From Brachionus manjavacas (lineage: Eukaryota; Rotifera; Eurotatoria; Ploima; Brachionidae): DNA of 64,000 nucleotides. The DNA lies in assembly GCA_019054805.1 (NCBI GenBank), contig JAHQIY010000006.1:4898001-4962000 (forward strand), written 5' to 3'. Made by a program: the position numbers and the translations under genes. Below the pieces are notes generated by a model that did no database searches, was not told where the DNA came from, and saw only the letters and a program-made list of their open reading frames with translations. Position 1 is the stretch's first letter. Every line of letters begins with the position of its first letter. Of this stretch, positions 14,660 to 59,602 are shown piece after piece.

Positions 14660-17255
14660 TTAATAAGACTCTAATAAGTTAAGGTTTTGTTGTTTATTTT
14701 CAATCATATTATTTTCTAAATACAAAAATGTTTCTTCAACACTTAACTTATAAGCTGTTTGTTTTTGTTTTTTTTCGCTCATATTCTTACAAAACGAGTT
14801 TTGACTAGTTAAAATATTTTCTGAACAAGAAATTCTAGATCCAAATTTCATTTTTTCAAAGCATAATATTTTATCAATTGTTTCTTTTGAGATTTTGTCA
14901 ACACCTCCGAATATTTCCTTCATCTAGAGAAAAAATTTAACTACTTATTTTTAATAATTAATTAATTTAAGTTACTAATGGATCATCAGAGCAATAATTC
15001 CAAGCATTTTTATTACAAGTCAAATAACACTTTTTATAATTCTTATCAATTGTATCTTCGCAAAATGAATGTTCTATTTCTTGACTTATCTTTAAATATT
15101 TGCTATGAAAATTTGATGATTCAAGGAGTTCATTCATCGTCAAACTTTTTTCCTTCAAATTTTTTTTTTTTTTGTTCATCATTGTAAAAAATGTTAAATT
15201 AAGATAATCATAATCTAAATTTAGAGGAAAGTCATTTTCCAAATTTGGATCAGCACCATTTTTAAGTAGAATACTCGTAGATAAATAATTTTTATTTAAT
15301 ACCGCCAAATGGAGAGGAGTATAACCAGCATATGATTTAACATTGACATCTACTTTTTGGTTTTTGGTCAACATGTATAAGATTATTGTTCCATAGGGAT
15401 CCTTGGCAGCATAATGAAGTGCAGTAAAGCCAATTTTTTTATCAGTTGAGTTTATTTTTAGTTGATCGAAATACAACAGTTCTCTCACGATTTCAATAGA
15501 ATTTTTCAATACTGACAAATGAATAGGTGTATATCCTTCATGATTAGTGCAATTTATTACCTCATAGCAGCGGTTCCGATTAACAAATCTCAGAAATGTC
15601 TCTAAAAGTTTGAAATTTTTAATTTTACAGGCTATGTGAATAGGATTATTGCCATCATAGTCAGAAATAGAAATTTTCGCATTAGCCTCGAGCAAAAACT
15701 CACACAATTCCAACTCACTCAAATGTGCTGCAATCAAAAGAGGCGTCAGACCCATGTTATTTCTCGTATTTATAATATCTTGATCAGGTATAGTTCTTAC
15801 AATATCGACAAAAATTTCTGTTAAATCAAAATTTTTGTTCAATATACTTAAATGTATAGGTGTATTGCCATTGCCATCGGTATAGCAAAAAATATATCGA
15901 TATACTTTTAAAAGGTCATGAACAGATCTGTTCTTTGAAAATTTAAGAAGTGAATTTCCAATTTTTTCCGTAAGAAAATTCATTTTATCAATTAGAACTT
16001 TATTTTTGACATTTTCTAAATTTTGTTCATTTGCTTTCAATTTTTCACTGTCTCGGTTCAATACTTTGTCAATTCCAAAAGTTAATGTTTTATTTTTTTT
16101 TATTTTTTCGAATTCTTCGTCAAAGAAATTGTCTCTTTTTAAATTTGGTGTTACAATCGGCAAATCAAATTCATTATTTATGAACCGTGTAAATAGTGAT
16201 TTTAAAGAATGATATTTCTCTTTGTAATAATAAAAATCACGTTTTTCACTATAATAACCTGTGCTTGGTCGCAAAAGTCTGAAATAAACTTTTTTCTTTT
16301 GAAAATACAAATTTTGTGTTTTACCTGTATATTTTGGTGTATAAATAACCAGAGAAAAGTTCACATGCGAATCAAAAGCATCGAAATTGGCATTTGACTG
16401 CCAGACAATATTACCGTCTTTGTCGAGCTCAAAAAATTCTACTTTTAAATCATCTGGATCAAAATATGAGAGAAATAGAAAAATTTCCTCGTTGCCCTTA
16501 GTTGATCCGTGATTCTGGCTTACTCGAAGTATTCTCAGATCATTTACATTTGTGATGGTGGAATCAATTTTCTCTTCAAAATGGTATTTTCTTACTGAAC
16601 ATTGTGGAAACGAATCATAAATTATAGTTGAATAAATTGGATCTAATAGACGCTCAAAACTATGCTTAATTTTATCGTATGATTTTAGTTCTATTTTAAT
16701 TCTACATTTATCTGTTTGCTGTAAAAGAATTTCTTCGACCATTTTAAACTTTTCTTCACATAAAGTCACCTTATTAGAATCATCGTGTACACTGCTATTT
16801 TCAGTATCTAAAAGATCCCAGCTTACTTTTTCTACCAATTCTCTGAATTCATCTTGCGAGCATTTTACAATTTTAAAATTTTTAACTTCACAAATCATTG
16901 ATTCCAAATTAACAGGAATTAAGAATGCATGAGAATTTGAAAGCTTTTTTTTCCTCATTTCATAGTTAAGTAGTCTAATGTATCTATCACTGCATGACAA
17001 TAGATTGGGATTTGGAAGGTGTAAAAATTTTTCTTCTGTGTTCACAATTGAAATCATTAAAAATGGTTCTGCAAAATTAGGGAAAACTTCCAAATTAGGA
17101 ATATGAACTTTAAAGTTCAATTCCTCAAAATTATTGGGAAACTTTCCAATAAAACAGGCTGAAAACTTGATTGTACTACAAGGATCTTCTATAATTTGCA
17201 TTTTGTTTAAATCTTTTGTTAAATAACTTAAATTTAAAATTAAATTCAATAACAT
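14660..17255 (-). CDS. NFKB1: Divergent NF-kappaB p105/Relish-type protein (Rel homology + ankyrin repeats)
   Basis: Class I NF-kappaB proteins are latent transcription factors whose own ankyrin repeats act as inhibitor. A long exon (17255-14976) joins in phase to a last exon (14923-14660), about 847 residues. The Rel dimerisation (IPT) domain is clear at about 240-345: LRILRVSQNHGSTKGNEEIF, DDLKVEFFELDKDG, VWQSNANFDAFDSHVNF, VIYTPKY and RLLRPSTGYYSEKRDFYYY. Before it, the N-terminal Rel domain is recognisable but degraded: MQIIEDP, then KFSACFIG where RFRYxCEG is expected, and RLLDPIYSTIIYDS at 202-215. Six ankyrin repeats span about 460-675 (NTPIHLSILN, YTPIHLSVLK, FTALHYAAKD, YTPLHLAVLN). 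No KRKR-type nuclear signal follows the Rel domain. The 170-residue tail has no recognised death domain. Met19 may be the true start. Confidence 0.82.
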
Positions 17256-17577: not shown

Positions 17578-18239
17578 CAGTCCCGGAAATTAACTTGTCG
17601 CATCATATCATCTGATATCATTTAATATCACTTTTTTAAACTTTACTCATTTGAGCTGATACCAGGTATTATCATTTGATATCATGTGAATTAAAATTTG
17701 AATTTCTATATGTAAAAATATGCAAATAATTATTTTTTAAGTTATTTTACGCACGTTTCGGTCAGCTTGCGTAATCTTACGTAAATATTTAAAGTTTTTT
17801 TAAAAAACGTTTTTTTGCATTTATTTTGGCATTCATATTTTCTTCAAATATCTTTATTCTGAAGCCTTAAAAAGTTACAAAATAAATTTCTTTTTTGAAA
17901 AACTTAATTAAATTTTACCAAAAATTGTGTAATTTTACGTTAAATCAAGTAAGAAACGGTAACGAATGTTGAATTTATTTATAATTTTTCATAATGAAAT
18001 TATTTAAATATTTTAGAAAAGAAGCCAATTTTTAATTTTTCGTACCAAAAAAAAATAAAATCCTCATTTTTTTGGCTGTAAGAATTTTTGAACGATTTTA
18101 CCTAAATTTAAGCTTACATAATTTTAAATTAATATACAAATCCTTACCGACCAATATTTATGTAAGATTACGCAAGCTGACCGAAACTTGCGTAAAATAA
18201 CGTAATTTTACCAATTCTGGGCTTTTTGTAGAATCACTG
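17578..18239. mobile_element. Tc1/mariner-like MITE with a long internal inverted repeat
   Basis: Both ends read TA-CAGT...ACTG-TA (TA at 17576-17577 and 18240-18241), as expected for Tc1/mariner insertion. Inside, about 17739-17788 (GTTATTTTACGCACGTTTCG, GTCAGCTTGCGTAATCTTAC) is repeated inverted at about 18154-18201 with only a few differences, an arm of roughly 50 bases. No transposase ORF is present. The outermost bases beyond CAGT are only loosely matched, and the right end seems to carry a short insertion. A region rich in ATATCATNTGATATCA-like words lies at 17600-17690. Confidence 0.6.
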
Positions 18240-18748: not shown

Positions 18749-21046
18749 TTAGTTTTTTCTCCGAATCGCTTGAAGTCTTCGTTCAGTGACAGGTGTTTGA
18801 ATGGTTGACTTGATTCGATCCACATAGCCGATAGCCCATTCCAAAAAGATCTTTACCGCATCAGGATTAGCTAGTCTGTGTGAGGCTGCTGTCTTAACAT
18901 GTGGTTTGCCTACTCTGAAAGTTATGCCAAGACCGGACAAAGCTCGCATAGCGTCTTCGTCAGTTTCATCGTCACCAATGAAAACTGCTTTGTAAGTGTC
19001 GGCCCAAGTAACTCCATACAACTTTTCCAGAATGTTATACACTCCTCGACCTTTGTCCCATCCTATAGGTGGTCTTGCCTCCACAGCACAATGAGCCCTT
19101 GTTGCCTGAAATCCATATTTCTGCACTATCTCTGTCGCTTTTTGTATCATCAATTGCTTAAAGCTCGGATTGGTATCTCTCCAATGAAAAGTGACATGGT
19201 ATCTTTTTTCTTCTATCCAACCTCCATGCTCACACACATTTTCCCTCAGTTCTTTTACAAGATCGGGAATTTTGGCTCGGAATATAACCGCTTGTTCACA
19301 CTCTTCTTGGAGACCATTTGCCAAGCACAACTCCATTCCATGACTTCCTGACAAATTGATATTTTTTATTTTAATCAGTCTTTTCAAGTTGTCCATTGAG
19401 CGTCCTGACAAAATGGTCACGTCTATGTGCTTACACTCGGCCAACTTTTCCAAAAGGCTTTTGACATCGTCTGGCAAAACAGCCAGATCCGGATGCGTTT
19501 GCAATGGAACTAGAGTGCCATCATAGTCTAAAATAATGGACAAATTGTATCCTTTTAGAATCGGACCTAGCCATGATTCGTAATCGGACACATTCAAAGA
19601 TTTCATCTTCTTAAAGTTGTCTATCATGTCAACAGCATCGAAAAACGACTCGAGCCAAGTGTCCAAATTGAACAATCTTTCTCTGGTCTGTAAAGCATTC
19701 ATTCTTAATTTTCTCTCATAATACTTCATGTCATAAGCAGTCTTGATAGCATCGGCAATCAAATCCTGCTCAAGTGGGTTGACTAGCAACGCTTCGTTCA
19801 TTGTTTCACCGGCACCAGTAAATGGAGAAATAATCAAAACACCAGGATCATCTATTTGACAAGCAACATACTCTTTGGCAACTAGATTCATGCCGTCTCT
19901 GACAGGCGTGATTAGACCGATTCTGGCATCGCGATAATATCCTGCCAGGTCAAACTGGGATATGTTATTGCAAATGTATTTAATAGGGGTCCATTCAGCA
20001 GTGGCAAAGCGACCGCTGATACGACCAATTTCTCTCTCAAGCTCATCTTTTAAATTCCGGTAGTCTTCTACATCGGTTCTGGACGGCACGGCCACTTGAA
20101 AAAACACCACCTTTTCCCTACAATCAGGGTATTTCTCCAAAAAGCGTTCATAGCCGCGGACACGCTGAATAATTCCCTTGGTGTAATCAAGTCTGTCCAC
20201 GCCGAATATCACTTTTTCCTTGAAATTAAAAGGTTTGGGCGCGATTCGCGCATTTTTCTCAAACCAATCATATGGAATGCCAATGGGCAATGCTCGGACA
20301 ACACTGGTCTTGTTGCCATATTCAATAATCATCTCTTTGCGGTCAACTCGGGCGCCAAGAATGTAAAAACAACACTCGATAAAGTTACTGGCATAAGTGT
20401 TTGTGTGGAAAGCGATCAAATCACAGCCCAAGAGTCCGAGCAAAATTTCGTTTGCCCACGGGTTCAGACGGAAAATGTCCCATGACGGAAATGGTATGTG
20501 CAAAAAAAAGGCCAACTTACATGTTATATGTGCCTCGTCCAACATATTTCTGAGCATCATTGGCATCACCATCAACTGATAGTCTTGTATCCAAACAAGG
20601 TTGCTTTTTTCATTCAGATTATCGAACTGTTTCACCGCTTCAAAGGTTGAGCTGGCGAATAGCTCGTTTACGGCCACATAGGCGCTCCATTGGTCGCCTC
20701 TGAAAACAGCCAGCGAGGGTAACGAGTGCATCAAAGGCCACAATGTTCCATTACAAACGCCATTGTAGTACAAGTCAAATGTTTCTTTTGACAAATAGAT
20801 CGGAATTATTTGAGAGCTTTTGATTCCGTGAGCGATCGCTGTCGGATCGTCACTTTCGGGGATTTTCATATTTTCTGTCAAATCGTTTCCGGCCCATCCG
20901 ACCCAATATCCATCATTCTTTATCACGAGAGGCGCCAAAGCTGTCACCAGACCACCTGCTGAATTTTTGCGCACCGGATCACCATTCTCGTTTGTGTTAA
21001 TTACAAACGGCAAACGATTGGAAACAACTACCAAAGAACGCTTCAT
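18749..21046 (-). CDS. TPS: Trehalose-6-phosphate synthase/phosphatase, fused, intronless
   Basis: Makes trehalose-6-phosphate from UDP-glucose and glucose-6-phosphate and, through the fused phosphatase, trehalose; a cytosolic pathway tied to stress protection and blood-sugar function in invertebrates. One 765-residue ORF. The GT20 synthase half (about 1-465) shows SNRLPFV, GGLVTALAPL, WVGWAGN, WPLMHSLP, FFLHIPFPSWDIFRLNPW, GVDRLDYTKGI, PVRDGMNLVAKEYV and SPFTGAGETMNEA; the sugar-binding Arg and Lys (DRLDYTKG) and catalytic Asp (RDGMN) are present. The HAD phosphatase half (about 505-740) shows LDYDGTLVPL, ILSGRSMDNL, GSHGMEL and FIGDDETDEDAM, so both activities look intact. The usual VHDYHL motif reads WIQDYQLM, with Gln at both His positions. 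ATG at 21046 gives the family N-terminus directly. Base composition is GC-richer than its surroundings. Confidence 0.96.
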   Translation of the reverse strand: MKRSLVVVSNRLPFVINTNENGDPVRKNSAGGLVTALAPLVIKNDGYWVGWAGNDLTENMKIPESDDPTAIAHGIKSSQIIPIYLSKETFDLYYNGVCNGTLWPLMHSLPSLAVFRGDQWSAYVAVNELFASSTFEAVKQFDNLNEKSNLVWIQDYQLMVMPMMLRNMLDEAHITCKLAFFLHIPFPSWDIFRLNPWANEILLGLLGCDLIAFHTNTYASNFIECCFYILGARVDRKEMIIEYGNKTSVVRALPIGIPYDWFEKNARIAPKPFNFKEKVIFGVDRLDYTKGIIQRVRGYERFLEKYPDCREKVVFFQVAVPSRTDVEDYRNLKDELEREIGRISGRFATAEWTPIKYICNNISQFDLAGYYRDARIGLITPVRDGMNLVAKEYVACQIDDPGVLIISPFTGAGETMNEALLVNPLEQDLIADAIKTAYDMKYYERKLRMNALQTRERLFNLDTWLESFFDAVDMIDNFKKMKSLNVSDYESWLGPILKGYNLSIILDYDGTLVPLQTHPDLAVLPDDVKSLLEKLAECKHIDVTILSGRSMDNLKRLIKIKNINLSGSHGMELCLANGLQEECEQAVIFRAKIPDLVKELRENVCEHGGWIEEKRYHVTFHWRDTNPSFKQLMIQKATEIVQKYGFQATRAHCAVEARPPIGWDKGRGVYNILEKLYGVTWADTYKAVFIGDDETDEDAMRALSGLGITFRVGKPHVKTAASHRLANPDAVKIFLEWAIGYVDRIKSTIQTPVTERRLQAIRRKN

Positions 21047-28614: not shown

Positions 28615-29934
28615 CTAGAAAATTTTTTGAATTTTTGGAAAAAATTCATCGATTCTATCATGAATCAAGCTGTAAGTTAGCTCACCATAAGTGCTATTTA
28701 CTATTTTACCGTAAGAATTAATCAAAAATATCGAGTTTTCATCTAACCCAATGGTCTTATATGTCAAAAGATCACTCAACTTGTTACCAAAACCAGCTAC
28801 AAAAGGACTTTGATCATCTTCAAACAAAGATTTCAACATGTTCAAGAAATTAACTTTAAATTCCTCTGGATTATTTTCTATCAATTCAGATTGAAATGCA
28901 ACCAAAAAATCAACTGGATTTACTAAAACTGGACAAATAGGCATTGATTGATCACTTTGAACCAAATTTTTGATCAAACTTCTGGTCAACTCACACTGAC
29001 AAATTGGACGAGCGCTTAAATACACAATTTTATAATCATTTTTTACAATCAAATTGAACAACTTGACTATTCCATCTTGATACCAATCTTTACCAATCAT
29101 GGACATTAAATGGCCTCTTAAATCGGATTTGGTAATTGTTCCATCGATATCAGACACGATCAGCTTTGCATTTGAGTCCCAAAGGAAAATGTTAGCCACA
29201 GTCGATTTATATTTCTTTTCTTTTTCACAATCGTATAATACAAATTTAATCTCATTTACTCCAGGATTAAGATGGAGCAATTCAAGCTTGCTTGAGCTTA
29301 AATTGATATTTTTTGATAGCTTTGATTTTTCAATCTTTATAACTTTGTCCCTTAGCTTTTCAAAATCGGGATCTGACTCTTGTTTTTCGTCAGAACATTT
29401 TGTATCTGTATTGTTATACTTGAGCAGGTTAACACATGATGAGCTTTCAATGTAAAACCTGGGAGCCAAAAGATCATTGTTGGTTTCATTTGTGTTCTCA
29501 TCGTTTTGCTCGATCATAAAATCCTTCAGAGTATTGGCTGCCTTTAGATATTCATCCATTTTTTTGGAATCAGCTCTGTGTATATTGGGAACACTGGCCG
29601 ATACTTCGATATGATTGCCAACTGAACATAGATGTGAAGCTACATTCGAAAATGAAGATTCACCACTGTCTTGATTGATGAAAAACGCTTCACCGGATTC
29701 GTCAAGCATCATTTGAATTTCCTCTATAGGAACATTATTGACTTCAATTTGAACGATTCTATCTCTGGGCTTTAGGACTCCAAGCTTTCCGAAGCGAACG
29801 TAAAACGGAGTGCTGCGCAAACTTCCATTTCTTTGACGAATTACGATCACATCCATAGAATCGGTAAAATTGGCTTTGTTGATCTCATCATAATAAGCCA
29901 CTACACGTTCAGCTAAATCATAAAGATTTTCCAT
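28615..29934 (-). CDS. LPIN: Lipin, phosphatidate phosphatase, short and intronless
   Basis: Lipins are Mg-dependent phosphatidate phosphatases making diacylglycerol at the ER, and in several animals also transcriptional co-regulators. One 439-residue ORF, about half the usual length. N-LIP at about 1-90: MDVIVIRQRNGSLRSTPFYV and RFGKLGVLKPRD. C-LIP/HAD at about 215-430: LNPGVNEIKFVLYD, KLIVSDIDGTITKSDLRGHL with the DxDxT catalytic pair at 262-266, MIGKDWYQDGIVKLF, IVYLSARPI, EEFKVNFLNMLKSLF and FVAGFGNKLSDLLTYKTIGL. Catalytic residues are intact. The long Ser-rich middle of other lipins is cut to about 100 residues, and no clear polybasic nuclear signal is seen. The C-terminus ends soon after the HAD fold. 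No intron interrupts it, unlike the flanking POLA2 and POLQ, so a retrocopy origin is possible. Confidence 0.93.
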   Translation of the reverse strand: MENLYDLAERVVAYYDEINKANFTDSMDVIVIRQRNGSLRSTPFYVRFGKLGVLKPRDRIVQIEVNNVPIEEIQMMLDESGEAFFINQDSGESSFSNVASHLCSVGNHIEVSASVPNIHRADSKKMDEYLKAANTLKDFMIEQNDENTNETNNDLLAPRFYIESSSCVNLLKYNNTDTKCSDEKQESDPDFEKLRDKVIKIEKSKLSKNINLSSSKLELLHLNPGVNEIKFVLYDCEKEKKYKSTVANIFLWDSNAKLIVSDIDGTITKSDLRGHLMSMIGKDWYQDGIVKLFNLIVKNDYKIVYLSARPICQCELTRSLIKNLVQSDQSMPICPVLVNPVDFLVAFQSELIENNPEEFKVNFLNMLKSLFEDDQSPFVAGFGNKLSDLLTYKTIGLDENSIFLINSYGKIVNSTYGELTYSLIHDRIDEFFPKIQKIF

Positions 29935-30995: not shown

Positions 30996-39616
<8,621 letters not shown>

Positions 39617-46477: not shown

Positions 46478-47968
46478 CTAAGATCTTCTGTATGTATTCG
46501 GCTTCCTTGAATCGACCTGTTCCTCGCGTCTACCGCTAAAGTCTTGGTAATTTTTTTTATTGCCTCTAGACCCGTTGCTCGACGATCGGGTCACCCTTGG
46601 CTTCGTGTTCTGGCCACCGTATACTCGGCCTTGACGAGCTCGCTTCTCCTCCACATTCAGTCTAAACTCGCCTTTCTCATTTTTGAACACCAAGTTATTC
46701 GACTTGGTACTGCCCAAAAGATTGTCCACATGCTGTTTTTCCTCGAAAACAACAAAGCCATAGTTTGGCAGTCTTCGACCAACTGGTTGTTTTGTATTTG
46801 TGTTTATTCTCACCTCCAATACTTTTCCGTATTGACTAAAAAATTGCTTCAGCTCTGCATCGGTAATTTCCTGGCTCAAATTTCCCACAAAAACCTGTTG
46901 ACCATCGGGATAGCGTCCAAAACGCTTCTCAATGTCGTCCACTTCATTGTTGTTTCCATTGAATTTTTCGACTGGCTGCCGCTGAGGCTTGGGTTCAGCG
47001 GGTGGCGTGGCTTTCACTTCTTCTTTCTTGTCCACAGGCCTGGGCTTCTGCTGTGGCTTGACAGTGCCATTCTGCTGCACTGTCTTTACTTGTTTTATTT
47101 CCTTTGGTCTTGGAGCAACCTGAACAGGAACCGGAGCTTGAACAGAATCACTTTTAGAAATTATTTTTGCCCACGAGTTGCTCTTGACCGGTTCTGGCTC
47201 CTGTCGAACAGGCTCAGTGTCTAGAACCTTGGCTTCCTCTACTGGTTCCGGCTCAACACTTGGCTTTTCCTCCTCCTTTTCGGCATTTTCGCTTGAGGAT
47301 GCCGATGAAGAAGAAGAATGCAGATGACCATTGAGAATGACAGGCTCTACACTTGGCTCGATTGCTTCCACTTCCACTGGCTCAGTACTTTGGGCTTCTT
47401 CCTGGACAAGTTGTTCTTGTTCAATTTGCTCGGGCTGAGGCGGCTCTACTTGCTCGCTTTCGGCTGGAAAGTACTCGCCACTGGACTCGGCCTGCTTCAC
47501 ATCGACTTGGGGTTCTTGTTGTTGAGCTGTTTCTTCGGATTCGGTGTCGGATACGTCCTGGTAAATCTCGTCTTGGTACCGGAAAATGTCGTTATGAACA
47601 TAGAACTTTTTGGGCGATTGTGGAGCAAGGACAAACGTTTGCATGAATCTCCTCATGGCCTCGCCGTTGTTGGACAATTCGCCGGTCACTTGGACCACAA
47701 CCCCGCTGCCAACCGTGAGCTGACTGTCAACTTGTCTGATCTTTGTGTGGCAGTCTTTGAAGCTGAGTTGGCGAATTTTTTTGTCGATCTCTAGTTGACC
47801 AATGACCGGCTCCTCACTCTGGCCCAAACGATCCACTCCGCCATGAACGAACATGCTTCCCGATGAGTAAAAACGGTGCAATAGCTCTGGCGCCTCGTGT
47901 AAAACAGTGTAGTATTGACGGACGAATTCGCGTCCAACTTGTTGTGGGCTCGGAGTTGCCATGACCAT
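46478..47968 (-). CDS. G3BP: Ras-GAP SH3-binding protein G3BP (rasputin), intronless
   Basis: RNA-binding scaffold that nucleates cytoplasmic stress granules and binds other proteins through its NTF2-like domain. 496 residues. NTF2-like domain at about 8-135: VGREFVRQYYTVLHEAPELL, HRFYSSGSMFVHGG, QLSFKDCHTKIRQVD, VVVQVTGELSNNG and RRFMQTFVLAPQ. An acidic Glu/Gln/Pro-rich middle follows (about 140-290), then a Lys/Pro region. RRM at about 357-440: QVFVGNLSQEITDAELKQFF (RNP2-like) and NYGFVVFEE (RNP1). The C-terminus has Arg/Gly with few RGG repeats. Domain order and length match G3BP/Rasputin. Starts MVMATPS; the second Met, two codons later, could be used. No intron, and GC-richer than the flanks. 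Confidence 0.95.
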   Translation of the reverse strand: MVMATPSPQQVGREFVRQYYTVLHEAPELLHRFYSSGSMFVHGGVDRLGQSEEPVIGQLEIDKKIRQLSFKDCHTKIRQVDSQLTVGSGVVVQVTGELSNNGEAMRRFMQTFVLAPQSPKKFYVHNDIFRYQDEIYQDVSDTESEETAQQQEPQVDVKQAESSGEYFPAESEQVEPPQPEQIEQEQLVQEEAQSTEPVEVEAIEPSVEPVILNGHLHSSSSSASSSENAEKEEEKPSVEPEPVEEAKVLDTEPVRQEPEPVKSNSWAKIISKSDSVQAPVPVQVAPRPKEIKQVKTVQQNGTVKPQQKPRPVDKKEEVKATPPAEPKPQRQPVEKFNGNNNEVDDIEKRFGRYPDGQQVFVGNLSQEITDAELKQFFSQYGKVLEVRINTNTKQPVGRRLPNYGFVVFEEKQHVDNLLGSTKSNNLVFKNEKGEFRLNVEEKRARQGRVYGGQNTKPRVTRSSSNGSRGNKKNYQDFSGRREEQVDSRKPNTYRRS

Positions 47969-49919: not shown

Positions 49920-50951
49920 ATGGAAGTTGACGATCAAAAATCAAATGTTAAAAAGGTATTTTTGGTCTTATCTGGTAAAGGCGGTGTGGGTAAATCTTCT
50001 GTAACTACACAACTAGCTTTTGCGCTTTATGAAAAAGGCTTTAAAGTAAGGATTTAAATAAAAGAAAGCCTTATCTTTTACTGTAAAATTGTTTCATTAG
50101 GTTGGAGTATTAGACGTTGATTTATGCGGGCCAAGTATCCCAAAAATGTTCAACTTGGAAAATGGGATAATAAATCAGAGCGAAACTGGATGGATACCTG
50201 TTTATTATGATAATGAACAAAGACTCGGAGTTATTTCAATTGGATTTTTACTTAACTCTAAATCAGATGCTGTTATTTGGAGAGGACCAAAAAAAAATTG
50301 TAATTTTTCTTATTCACAAATATATATTTTCATTTTAAAAAAAAACATTCAAATAAACTATTTCATAGCTATGATTAAAAAGTTTATGACAGATATTTGC
50401 TGGGGTGATCTTGATTATCTTTTAATCGATACACCACCCGGAACAAGTGACGAACATTTGGCTGTTATGGAAAATATCAAGACTAGCAATTATTGTAATT
50501 ATTCAGCCATTTTGGTCACAACTCCCCAAGTAATTAAAAAAATTAAAATAAAATTTTAGCATTGGTGATTTAAATAAAATTAGAACTTATCTGTTAATGA
50601 TGTACGAAGAGAGATAACTTTTTGCCGAAAAGTTGGTATACCAATAACTGGAATCATCGAAAACATGAGCGGATTTACTTGTCCTCATTGTAAAGATTGC
50701 ACTTATTTATTTACAAAACAAGGAGGAAAAATTTTGGCTGATAAATCAAACTGTAATTTTCTAGGTATTTTCAATCATTTAAATTAAAATATTTCAAGAT
50801 TATTATTTAATATTTTTGTAATTAAGGTGCAATTCCAATTGATCCAAATTTAACCCAATGCATTGAAGCTGGTCAAGAATTTTTGACGACTCTTAAAGAT
50901 TCACCTTGCTATACAAACATTAAAGAATTAGTAGAAAAAATTATTGAATAA
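49920..50951 (+). CDS. NUBP2: Cytosolic Fe-S cluster assembly factor NUBP2 (Cfd1)
   Basis: P-loop scaffold ATPase that with NUBP1 assembles and transfers 4Fe-4S clusters in the cytosol. Exons 49920-50045, 50101-50299, 50369-50529, 50584-50764 and 50827-50951; 263 residues (human 271). Seen: [19 protein letters not shown] (deviant Walker A), [42 protein letters not shown] (Walker B region), [20 protein letters not shown] with the CPxC cluster ligands, and IPIDPNLTQ. The absence of the N-terminal four-Cys region of NUBP1 supports NUBP2. The stop is 126 bases before the CPSF3 start on the same strand, with AATAAA near 50964. Confidence 0.95.
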
Positions 50952-51077: not shown

Positions 51078-53713
<2,636 letters not shown>

Positions 53714-55508: not shown

Positions 55509-58329
55509 TCAAGTTTCAGGAAAAAAAGAAGAAATAGTAAGGTAGCAATTACACAATGGAGTTGGGTATTCAATATATCTTGATTCGAAACCTTCTTTGT
55601 ATTCTTTCACCAGTCTTTCAACCAATGGAATAGAATGACTCAGTCCTGTCCCAACATATTTCTCGCTCAACTCAAAAAGACGATTCGAGACTGTTAGTAA
55701 TTTTAGTTTATTAAAAGCTTCATGTTGCACGATGTTGGAGGGAGTATCATATTTTAACTTAAGGATAGATCTTACTGCTGTATTCTGAATTGCTTGTAGT
55801 TTTTTGATATTATTTTCTGAAAATGAATATAAGCAAGGAAAAGAACAGTCTAAAATCGATCCGACTAAAGATTTATATAAATTTCCTAGTGTGTTTTGAT
55901 TGAGACCCCATTTTTTGTTTGACAGTATCTTAATAATATTTAGCCTTTTGTTGCAGCGTTCTTTAATTTCGTCTACTAGTGTATTAAAGTTTAACTTAGA
56001 ATCAAATTTAATACCAAGAAACTTGATTTCTTTTTGGCTCACTATTCTGTTTCCATAGATTTTTAAGTTAAGATTATCACCCTCTTTTTTGTACCTAGAA
56101 AAGACTACTGAACATGACTTTTAAACTGATATCTTCATTTTCCATTTAATAAGCCATTGTTCTAGTTCGTTGGTGTATTTATTAATCTTATTTTCAAGGT
56201 TCCCTTTCTTGTTATAAATGAAGAATGTAACTAGATCATCTGCGAAAAGCAGAGAGTATTCATTATTTGTTTTGTTTCTTTTTGGGATGTCATTAATATA
56301 AATACTAAATAAAAGAGGACTTATTACTGAGCCTTGAGGAACACCTGCAGTTATTTGATATTCGTCGCTCAATTGGTCATTCACATTTACCTTAAATGTC
56401 CTACTATCTAAAAAGGATCTAATCCAGTTAGTCAAGTAATGAGGTGGATTCATTTTAATCAATTTAAAAAGTAGACCTCCATGCCAAACCCTATCAAAGG
56501 CTTTAGAAATATCAAAAAAAAGGCCACAAACTCTTTTTTTTCTATTAAATGATTCCACAATTTTTTGAATTAAAAAGAAAAGATTATCTGATGTTGGCCG
56601 GTGTTTCCTAAATCCAGATTGCTCCTGGATAAGGAGTGAATTTTGTTCCAAATAATTGTATAATCTTGAAAATACTATGCGTTCCTAAACTAGGAGCTTT
56701 CCTAAACAACTCGTTATACTAATTGGTCTATAATTTAAAGGATCTTGTAAAGAAGAGGCTTTTTTTTGAATCATAGTAATGTTCGATGTTTTCCATACTT
56801 TAGGGACTCTACCTTCTCGAAGAGATAAATTAAAAAGTTCTATAATTTCTATTAATGAATTTCTAGGTAAGTTTTTTAACATTAGATTATGAATTTGGTC
56901 AGGTCCTGATGCCGCTTCATTTTTCAATCTTTTTAGAGCCATAATTAATTCATTTAAGCAAATTGGATCATTAAAATTAGACTGATCATAATTTCTAAAG
57001 AATTCAGAGTTAGAATTAAGTATTTCGAAATCTTTATCACGATCAATTAAATCAGAATCAGGACTAAATATTGAAGATAGGAGTTCTCCAAAGCATTTTC
57101 CCTTTTCTTCATTAGTTTTGAATTCCTTGTCATTTAAAAACAAATTTGGGATTAAATTTGATCCTTTTTTTGATCTAAATTTATTTATTTTTTTCCAGAA
57201 TGGTCTACTTGTCAGTGGGTTTTTTCCCATTTTCTCAATAAAATCAGACCAATTTTGATTCCAGAATTTTTTTAAAGAGGCCTATAACTCGAATGTAAGT
57301 TGATTAATTTTTTCTTGAGATTTTGACAGCGAGTTTTTTGAAAGTTTCTTCTTACTTTCCTACGTTCTTTTATCAGAATAACAATGTTCGGGGGAAGACT
57401 GGTTTTGTAGATTTTCTGCGAATGATAAGGAATGCTTTTATGTGAAGTAGAAATAATTTTTTCTGTAATTTTATCATTTAGTTGATCTATTGTGAGGGAA
57501 CTTTCAGTGATATTCACTATTTGAGAATTTAAAATCTCGCTGAATAATTGCCAGTTTGCTTTCTTATAGTTAAACTTTTTAGCTGCTGATTTATTTTCTA
57601 ATTGATAGCCCATTGAAATCGATGCTTCGATTGGGAAATGGTCACTAGTCATGTCTTGACTATTTAGGACACAAAAGTCGGTAATTTTGTCAATTAATGA
57701 AGATGAAACTAAGAAAAGATCAAGAATTTCAAAGTAATTCCTATTAAAAATATTGAAAGTAGGACGCTTATCATTAATTACTGAGAAATCTAACTCATTG
57801 ATTATTCTTTCCAACATTATGCCGTTTTCATTTTCCCCTACGCAGCCTATTTGCTTTGTTCTGGCGTTAAGATCACCACCTAAAATGTAGTTTCTACATT
57901 TTTTATTAACAGTTTTAAAAAACTCAAAGTTCAGAAGCATATTGGGTGGATTATAAAGACTGAATATAAACAATTCATTATTCTTTCCTAAGTTCATTTT
58001 TATACAAAGGAGTTCGGAATTGAATTCCTCATAAGAGAAATCTTGTATAAATTCAATTCCTTCTTTAATTAAAATTGCTACTCCTCCTCCATACTTGTTG
58101 CGTGGTTTTGTTATGAATTGATAATTGTGAAAATCAAGATAAATATTTCCTCACTTAAATCTATCTTTAGTTCATTGAGCAAAACAATGTCTGGACATTT
58201 TTGAGCTAAAAAATTGGCTAAGAGATGAACCCTACTAGGTAAATGAAGACAATTCCAGTGTGTAATTACTAACCTTGTTTTATTAAGAGGTTTTGTTCTT
58301 AAAGTTGATTTATTTATCTTCTTGTTCAT
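55509..58329 (-). pseudogene. LINE ORF2, endonuclease-reverse transcriptase, disrupted
   Basis: APE-type endonuclease followed by reverse transcriptase, the enzymes of target-primed reverse transcription. Seen: THWNCLHL and LLNELKID (endonuclease Asn and Glu), GGDLNARTKQIGC, TSDHFPIEASI, then NEAASGPDQIHNLMLKNLPR, LNYRPISITSCLGKLL, FFDISKAFDRVWHGGLLFKL, TAGVPQGSVISPLLFSIYIN and LLFADDLVTFF (FADD catalytic motif). Breaks: frameshifts at about 58150 and 57275, in-frame stops at about 56685 and 56121. It ends with a Jockey-like C-terminal domain (LYKSLVGSILDCSFPCLYSF). Not functional as it stands. Confidence 0.88.
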
Positions 58330-58471
58330 TCTAAATTTTCTTCAATGCTGTTTTGATCGGCAGTTTGCTGACCAATTTCGTTAGATGATTGATCTACTTG
58401 AATTGAACATTCAGTTGTTGAACTGTTTGATTCAGACTCGAAGGTACTGTCGTTTTGATTTTCTAAGACAA

Positions 58472-59602
58472 CTAATGGTTTCTTTGATTCATTTTCGGTG
58501 AGCTCTTTTCATTTGGATCAGATTCGGGAAATCTCTTGGTTTGATTTTTGGTTTGGAAAAAATTCTCAGTCTCATTCTGATCATTTGAGCGTACATTGAC
58601 AGGTGACTGGCATAGTGGTAGAAAATCGTTTAAACGACTTACCAAAGCTTCTTCTAAAACTGGAGTTTTAAGGTCTTTTGGGCTAATTTGGGATATTACG
58701 TCATTTAAATTTGTTGGCTGATATCCAGGTGTTTTTGGCATCACATTTTCATCATTATCTTTTTGGTCAGCTTTAAATAATGATTGCGTTTCTTCTTGGT
58801 CAATGTAAAGATCACTGTAGTCAATCTTTTTCCTTTCAAGCGACTTAAGCTTTTCGGCAATGGAGCATTTTTTTGTCAAATGTCCTTTCTGATGACAATT
58901 TTCGCATAGTGTTTCTTTGACAGGGCATTTAGCAATGTTGTGTCCTTCATCATCACAAAAATAGCATTTCTGCTTTTGTCCAACAATTGACACAAGACAC
59001 TTTAAACCATACATTATTGTGGGGCCTGACAAGCTTCCAATAATATTCTCAACTTCTTTTGGAAATGATATTCTCACCCTTCTGACACCATTTTTCCTCT
59101 CGGGTCTATCTTTATATTTTTCTTCGGTAATGTGTTCAATATTGAGTCCATCAATTCGAACAGCATTAAAGAAGGTTTCAAGTCTATGATTCTCGAAATC
59201 AGAGGGCAAGAAGTGAAATCGAAAAGTACAATACCTTCTGAGATCCAGGACTTTATTTGCATCTTCAAGTCTGAAAATGGTTCCATTGATATTGATGTCA
59301 CGATCGAAAACTTTGGCAACATTAAAAGCAGCATTAAACTCTATTATCCAAACTTTGTTTGAAGAGAAATTGTAGATACTTGTGATCGCATCATTTTCCA
59401 CTTGGTTCAGGACGACATCAAGTGCACTAAATAAGACTTTATGGCTAATCGGTTTGTCTATCCTCTTCAAGTTTAGCTTGACCGAATTTTTAAATATCCA
59501 CCGTCGGTTTTGGTTTGTTTTGTTGAGCGACATTGCCAACACACAACTTTCAACGGTTTTTAAATCACGTGAAAAAACTCTGCATTTTTCTGTAAAATGC
59601 AC
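58472..59602 (-). CDS. LINE ORF1, CCHC zinc-knuckle nucleic-acid-binding protein
   Basis: Intact 376-codon ORF upstream of ORF2 in the same element. An N-terminal RNA-binding-like region (about 25-215) precedes two CCHC knuckles: KCYFCDDEGHNIAKC and LCENCHQKGHLTKKC. A Lys-rich helix follows (AEKLKSLERKKIDYSDLYID), then an acidic, Asn/Gln/Pro-rich tail. Knuckles after an RRM-like region are typical of Jockey-clade ORF1 (Gag-like) proteins, which coat the element RNA. It could still be translated even though ORF2 is broken. Confidence 0.85.
   Translation of the reverse strand: MHFTEKCRVFSRDLKTVESCVLAMSLNKTNQNRRWIFKNSVKLNLKRIDKPISHKVLFSALDVVLNQVENDAITSIYNFSSNKVWIIEFNAAFNVAKVFDRDININGTIFRLEDANKVLDLRRYCTFRFHFLPSDFENHRLETFFNAVRIDGLNIEHITEEKYKDRPERKNGVRRVRISFPKEVENIIGSLSGPTIMYGLKCLVSIVGQKQKCYFCDDEGHNIAKCPVKETLCENCHQKGHLTKKCSIAEKLKSLERKKIDYSDLYIDQEETQSLFKADQKDNDENVMPKTPGYQPTNLNDVISQISPKDLKTPVLEEALVSRLNDFLPLCQSPVNVRSNDQNETENFFQTKNQTKRFPESDPNEKSSPKMNQRNH

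Follow-up and report, generated by a model that had tools for sequence, protein, structure and literature searches.

A p105-type gene of Brachionus manjavacas without the canonical kappaB-recognition loop, a candidate precursor-type IkappaB and dimer partner

The class I precursors of NF-kappaB (p105/NFKB1, p100/NFKB2 and Relish) share one order of domains, in which an N-terminal Rel subdomain (RHR-N) is followed by the Rel dimerisation domain (RHR-C) and by ankyrin repeats. Both p105 and p100 count as IkappaBs: through their ankyrins they bind Rel subunits and keep them cytosolic, and p100 is described as also building larger assemblies, in which RHD dimerisation and ankyrin contacts both take part (PMC8286839). 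The base contacts of p50 are given as Arg54, Arg56, Glu60, His64 and Lys241, with Arg56 described as universally conserved among NF-kappaB proteins (PMC10527052). Outside the vertebrates, As-NF-kappaB1 of the choanoflagellate Acanthoeca spectabilis is described as a Rel protein without ankyrin repeats that binds little DNA alone, which is attributed to a lack of homodimers, and a heterodimer has been proposed (PMC8677719). Furthermore, one sponge NF-kappaB is named as being without a glycine-rich region (PMC13042239), and neither Platyhelminthes nor Nematoda have p50/p105 according to one survey (PMC11432056). Our literature search, which covered mostly papers outside subscription, returned no paper on Rel homology proteins in rotifers; judged by title, none of the listed matches for rotifers and NF-kappaB concerned a rotifer Rel gene, and the papers that combine Brachionus with Relish, Dorsal and Toll were, again by title, aquaculture reviews.

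Our analysis concerns a gene of the rotifer Brachionus manjavacas that lies in what we call the window, the whole stretch of 64,000 nucleotides that was analysed (4,898,001-4,962,000 of contig C6). Its product has the domain order of the class I precursors and an RHR-C that is closest to p50. Unlike those precursors, it has no Pfam DNA-binding Rel domain, an insert between the Rel subdomains, and no R-x-R-Y in exon 1, a motif that is also absent from exon 1 of a paralog described below. In addition, exon 1 has no glycine-rich region (no 20-residue stretch with at least six Gly), and the spliced tails of gene and paralog gave no Pfam match at E<=1, to a Death domain or otherwise. The ankyrin domain resembles those of IkappaBalpha and IkappaBbeta; in contrast to the IkappaB proteins, Cactus included, the product contains a Rel dimerisation domain, and the DSGxxS degron was not found in exon 1, where there are loose D/E-S..S strings only. 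Nor does it look like a class II (Dorsal/RelA) protein, having ankyrins and lacking the loop. By descent and layout it would belong with the class I precursors, but it fails the feature of reading DNA, and we have not filed it as an NF-kappaB transcription factor.

The gene comprises two exons (Table 1), a model that fits the range of the original prediction and yields a product of 847 aa. An open frame of 762 codons (14967-17255, minus strand) has zero internal stops in DNA of about 25% GC. When the genome (114.17 Mb in 61 contigs, the scope of all genome searches) was searched with the window RHD, one paralog was returned (C6:6133521-6134492, plus strand; E 8.6e-57 at 41% identity), which lies in a frame of 819 codons. 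The paralog protein has 884 aa and the same layout, it shares the intron and the linker insert (20 residues after YDS), and its exon 2 (MREIFNS...) aligns with that of the window gene. The long frame at this GC content, the paralog of like layout and a dN below dS together indicate a real, constrained gene.

Table 1. Positions in the window of the p105-type gene, of its parts and of neighbouring genes
Feature	Position	Strand	Basis or remark
Exon 1, codons 1-760	17255-14976	minus	open frame and gene model
Alternative start M19 of exon 1	17201	minus	
Eroded N-terminal Rel subdomain, residues 19-215	16611-17201	minus	no RHD_DNA_bind match; p50 alignment; weak hhalign match
Recognition-loop equivalent KFSACFIG (canonical RFRYxCEG), residues 30-37	17145-17168	minus	
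Insert of about 17 residues (216-232) between Rel subdomains, after YDS	16560-16610	minus	MAFFT alignment
Rel dimerisation domain (RHR-C), residues 237-345	16221-16547	minus	Pfam RHD_dimer, phmmer
Basic patch KIKKNK, residues 384-389, possible weak NLS	16089-16106	minus	aligns with paralog KKKKNLR
Pre-ankyrin helix and six ankyrin repeats, IkappaB/p100 type, residues 425-680	15216-15983	minus	Pfam Ank, 4ot9 alignment, Foldseek
Intron, GT..AG, 52 nt, phase 0	14975-14924	minus	paralog: 57-nt intron, same protein position
Exon 2, 87 codons (MKEIFGG...LLESY) and stop	14923-14660	minus	stop at 14662-14660
T-box gene	681-1127	plus	Pfam
Lipin-like gene	28615-29934	minus	Pfam
NTF2+RRM (G3BP-like) gene	46478-47968	minus	Pfam
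NUBPL/ParA-type gene	50146-50559	plus	Pfam
CPSF73-like gene	52774-53355	plus	Pfam

Other genes of the window include, 1.5 kb upstream of the Rel gene, a fused trehalose-phosphate synthase/phosphatase in a single ORF (18749-21046, minus; 765 aa; Pfam 3.4e-122 and 3.5e-33), a type of gene that has been reported from B. manjavacas (PMC8277472). Pieces like those of DNA polymerase theta (family A polymerase, POLQ helical domain and helicase) lie at 31620-36716 (minus), and a non-LTR retrotransposon at 55509-59602 (minus) has a reverse transcriptase (1.2e-29) along with ORFs that, on reading, look like an endonuclease and a zinc knuckle.

The dimerisation and ankyrin domains are clear. Pfam RHD_dimer (PF16179) matches residues 241-344 at 2.1e-18 and ranges from 2e-18 to 6e-20 across the window gene and its paralog, while Pfam Ank families reach 7.7e-29 over what we count by hand as six repeats; both domains had been predicted, and the gene is borne out as an intact one for a p105-type protein with a divergent N-terminal Rel half. 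With phmmer against PDB sequences, the dimerisation domain was the only portion of the Rel part to align (best p50, 1.1e-13). The C-terminal domain of p100 (4ot9) aligns as a single stretch of about 250 residues, the helix that precedes repeat 1 included. In a sequence search with the ankyrins of the window gene, p100 and IkappaB score below ankyrin-1, NOMPC and DARPins, so that the ankyrin sequence alone does not point specifically to IkappaB. The exon-1 protein was modelled with AlphaFold from two sequences, with confidence chiefly in the ankyrins (10-residue means of 58-89 over residues 461-670), and Foldseek placed IkappaBbeta from its p65 complexes (1oy3 and 1k3z) on top of the matches to this part, with E 3.9e-14 and 1.8e-13 and target TM 0.82-0.85. 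Designed ankyrin fusions ranked next, p100 fifth, IkappaBzeta tenth and IkappaBalpha 32nd (target TM 0.85). When human IkappaBalpha ankyrins were used as the query against the genome, the window gene came first of 77 pieces (2.4e-17, query 2-184), ahead of a C2 ankyrin array and, in third place, the paralog (1.9e-15). That search ran exon by exon, so an intron-split gene could escape it, and three other loci of the 77 pieces were inspected as candidates for a stand-alone IkappaB/Cactus; by eye, two look like Mindbomb (L023, L044) and one like ANKRD54 (L043). There may be a separate, stand-alone IkappaB elsewhere in the genome.

The N-terminal half of the Rel region is of a different character. 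No Pfam match to RHD_DNA_bind (PF00554) was reported for residues 19-347 at a threshold of E 10, a setting under which the HMMER filters still drop most matches above E of about 0.1. Hhalign against three canonical RHR-N domains gave a weak match to the first 58 residues only (E 0.0019, probability 14%). Preceding RHR-C is a stretch of the length expected; it starts with MQIIEDP, for which the canonical sequence is LQILEQP, and ends with RLLDPIYSTIIYDS, the join of the Rel subdomains (p50 equivalent RRLEPVVSDAIYDS), which is kept as the original prediction had it. It is likely, mainly on position and edge motifs, that this half descended from RHR-N. The predicted reading of the loop was also correct, in that K30 F31 S32 A33 C34 F35 I36 G37 stand in register against RFRYxCEG. 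MAFFT and hhalign both insert a gap that puts Cys34 on the canonical Cys; Arg56, Tyr57 and Glu60 are missing in both registers. The divergence spans the whole of this half, beyond the loop, the window protein and p50 being identical in 37 of 174 aligned columns. Its net charge is -6 (paralog -1, Dorsal-type +3, p65 +4), and a basic run, RKKK, occupies residues 101-104. A structure model of the RHD was poor (pLDDT 48) and uninformative on the loop, with p50 and p52 ranked first by Foldseek over 311-331 columns; in the exon-1 model, RHR-N had a pLDDT of about 20-32.

Identity to p50 at individual positions was read in every case off one MAFFT alignment. At the five base-contact positions the window protein retains none and the paralog one (Glu60), and the Dorsal-type protein of this genome and p65 retain three each; with Tyr57 and Cys59 added, the counts become 1/7, 2/7, 4/7 and 5/7, respectively. 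Lys241 is not kept in the window protein. For the positions that we take to be DNA-backbone contacts (144, 145, 305 and 306 of p50), the window protein matches at 0/4, the paralog at 1/4, the Dorsal-type at 2/4 and p65 at 3/4, R305 and Q306 being V and N in window gene and paralog alike. At nine positions that we take, from the p50 structures, to form the dimer interface, the corresponding counts are 5/9 for the window protein, 6/9 for the paralog, 2/9 for the Dorsal-type and 6/9 for p65. With so few positions, the contrast between base contacts and interface is not significant (one-sided Fisher 0.06 for the window gene and 0.13 for the paralog).

A normal loop could in principle be supplied by an upstream exon. 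We consider this unlikely, on the grounds that the loop and its flank MQIIEDPCSTIKF share one uninterrupted ORF, that the flank matches the start of the canonical domain (LQILEQP..FRF), and that the paralog has the same layout. An acceptor-like site, TTTTCAG, falls within the loop codons; the part upstream of it already fits, in a single frame, the way the canonical domain begins. None of the six unspliced frames of the 64-kb window contains the pattern R/K-[FLMIVY]-R/K-[YFH]-x-[CSAGT]-E. Relaxing it to R-[FLMIVY]-R-[YFH] gives 12 matches, one of which, RYRFLLDLT* at 17964 (minus), falls between the window gene and its upstream neighbour and has no loop-like continuation.

The paralog resembles the window gene in its losses. 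Its loop reads IKFVDSCENLSN and keeps the Cys and Glu; I29, K30 and F31 are kept in both genes, and both have lost the equivalents of Arg56, Tyr57, Lys241, R305 and Q306. The original suggestion that sequence-specific DNA binding may be lost is thereby strengthened as far as the canonical DNA-reading residues go, most of them being gone from the paralog too, and weakened by the loop Cys and Glu that the paralog keeps. Between the two genes, RHR-N is 35% identical over 178 aligned residues (dN 0.64, dS 1.61), RHR-C 54% over 109 (dN 0.37, dS 1.59) and the ankyrins, the best-kept domain, 58% over 256 (dN 0.31, dS saturated); dS is near or at saturation, so dN/dS ratios are rough. The gradient from RHR-N to RHR-C is not by itself a sign of erosion, for p50 and p65 have a similar one (40/58%). 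In the three segments with an estimable dS, dN was less than dS, which for RHR-N suggests that the N-terminal half keeps some task, possibly DNA contact.

Elsewhere in the genome, scanning with PF16179 returned only the window gene and the paralog above the cut-off, and scanning with PF00554 only two near-identical copies of Dorsal/RelA type on C6, at 2.22 and 2.24 Mb. The product of one copy, spliced by hand as far as the end of the Rel domain, matches RHD_DNA_bind at 1.9e-28 and RHD_dimer at 6.8e-10, with p65 as its best PDB match (1.4e-29). In the loop of this copy, RMRYEAENRS, the Arg, Arg, Tyr and Glu persist and Ala stands in place of Cys, a replacement that should be tolerable since the DNA-bound p50 crystal 1svc has Ala there; the dimer interface of the copy is divergent from p50 and p65. 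The copies span 2222892-2226035 and 2234341-2237493 (loci L002 and L001; larger loci L012 and L013), about 11.45 kb apart, and are near-identical over the Rel exons, diverging just past the Rel domain and in intron 1. All 6 pieces found with a full p50 query fall within these four genes, as RHR-C in the window gene and paralog and, per Dorsal-type copy, as one RHR-N piece and one that runs from the end of RHR-N into RHR-C. A Dorsal-type query gave 10 pieces in its own two copies and one 27% match (E 0.86) on C4. Two further loci were rejected as Rel genes: L007, with PF16179 at E 0.5 only and four stops, and L010, with PF00554 at E 1.17 and, by eye, a retrotransposon-like ORF beside it. A DNA-pattern scan of the genome for the canonical loop came up empty on both strands (4 and 2 matches for the control), the pattern covering mainly Cys and TCY-coded Ser within a single exon and, through omission of the Ala codons GCA/GCG, missing the Dorsal-type loop. 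As to a second, canonical Rel gene in this genome, one of p50 type was not found, and the two Dorsal/RelA-type copies have most of the loop. The IKK-specific domain PF18397 had no match genome-wide, which is a weak test, the domain being helical and diverged. TIR domains had only four matches in the whole genome. These results would fit an upstream Toll/IKK pathway that is small or diverged.

Our best reading is that the gene descends from an NF-kappaB class I (p105/p100/Relish-type) precursor in which the kappaB-recognising residues were lost and the dimerisation and IkappaB-type ankyrin domains kept. With moderate confidence, we propose a p105 descendant that would no longer read kappaB DNA itself and would act as a precursor-type IkappaB and dimer partner. 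The window protein would pair through RHR-C with Rel proteins, either the paralog, the Dorsal/RelA-type copies or both, and its ankyrin repeats would hold the paired proteins inactive, in the fashion of p105 and p100, until the window protein is degraded. Since no glycine-rich region was seen, it would escape trimming to a DNA-binding p50. We infer that the gene is expressed, that the protein has dimer partners, that it acts by cytoplasmic retention and that it does not bind DNA. The human p105 variant R57C, which is likewise broken at the first loop Arg, is described as non-decaying and trans-inhibitory: the p50 level was mildly reduced, DNA binding was lost and, as p105, it almost completely blocked a RelA-driven reporter (PMC9465457). 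R57C is a single disease mutation, however, whereas the losses in the window gene are many and mostly common to two genes. A broken loop need not inhibit, moreover, given that the human loop variant G64V lost DNA binding and yet, as p50, slightly raised the reporter (PMC9465457). Partnership with the Dorsal-type is not assured either, because its interface is itself divergent.

Alternatively, the protein could be the silent half of an obligate heterodimer, entering the nucleus with a DNA-reading Dorsal-type partner and tuning site choice or transcription rather than inhibiting it. This is the main rival, and we think it unlikely. A partial precedent exists in As-NF-kappaB1, which is described as barely binding DNA alone, forming no homodimers and pairing with relatives (PMC8677719). 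The Dorsal-type copies, with most of the loop kept and the interface divergent, are the converse of the window gene, and the original statement that no basic nuclear signal follows the Rel domain is weakened by KIKKNK, about 40 residues past that domain, even if no other basic signal was noted there. Set against a nuclear heterodimer, the well-kept ankyrins and the want of a glycine-rich region in exon 1 favour retention. That converse pattern of residues also prompts a wider and more speculative idea, a long shot in our view, in which the NF-kappaB of this lineage would be split between Dorsal-type DNA heads with a decayed interface and two RHD-ankyrin dimer/inhibitor proteins, neither working alone and the RHD-ankyrin pair being the animal's only IkappaB. 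A rebuilt loop that reads a changed DNA motif, as the original prediction also allowed, is improbable. RHR-N is retained and constrained, I29, K30 and F31 persist in both paralogs, and the basic run RKKK also speaks for it; beyond IKF, and the Cys in the MAFFT register, the two loops share little, the equivalents of Arg56, Tyr57, Lys241, R305 and Q306 are lost in both, and RHR-N is acidic in net charge. Of the readings offered earlier, an IkappaB-like inhibitor or dimer partner appears the better supported. That the locus is a pseudogene, an assembly error or a mis-read gene model is hardly credible: beyond the divergent domain and an expression that we infer, little speaks for it, and against it stand the intact 762-codon frame, the intron common to the paralog, an exon-1 protein 44% identical to the paralog along its whole length, and dN below dS wherever it could be estimated.

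If the gene is a precursor-type IkappaB and dimer partner, it would be a candidate case of a transcription-factor precursor evolving, within a single protein, into something closer to IkappaB. A pair of intact genes in which the canonical loop is broken would let nature show which Rel functions can do without the reading of DNA, and describing them would be a step towards an account of NF-kappaB in rotifers.
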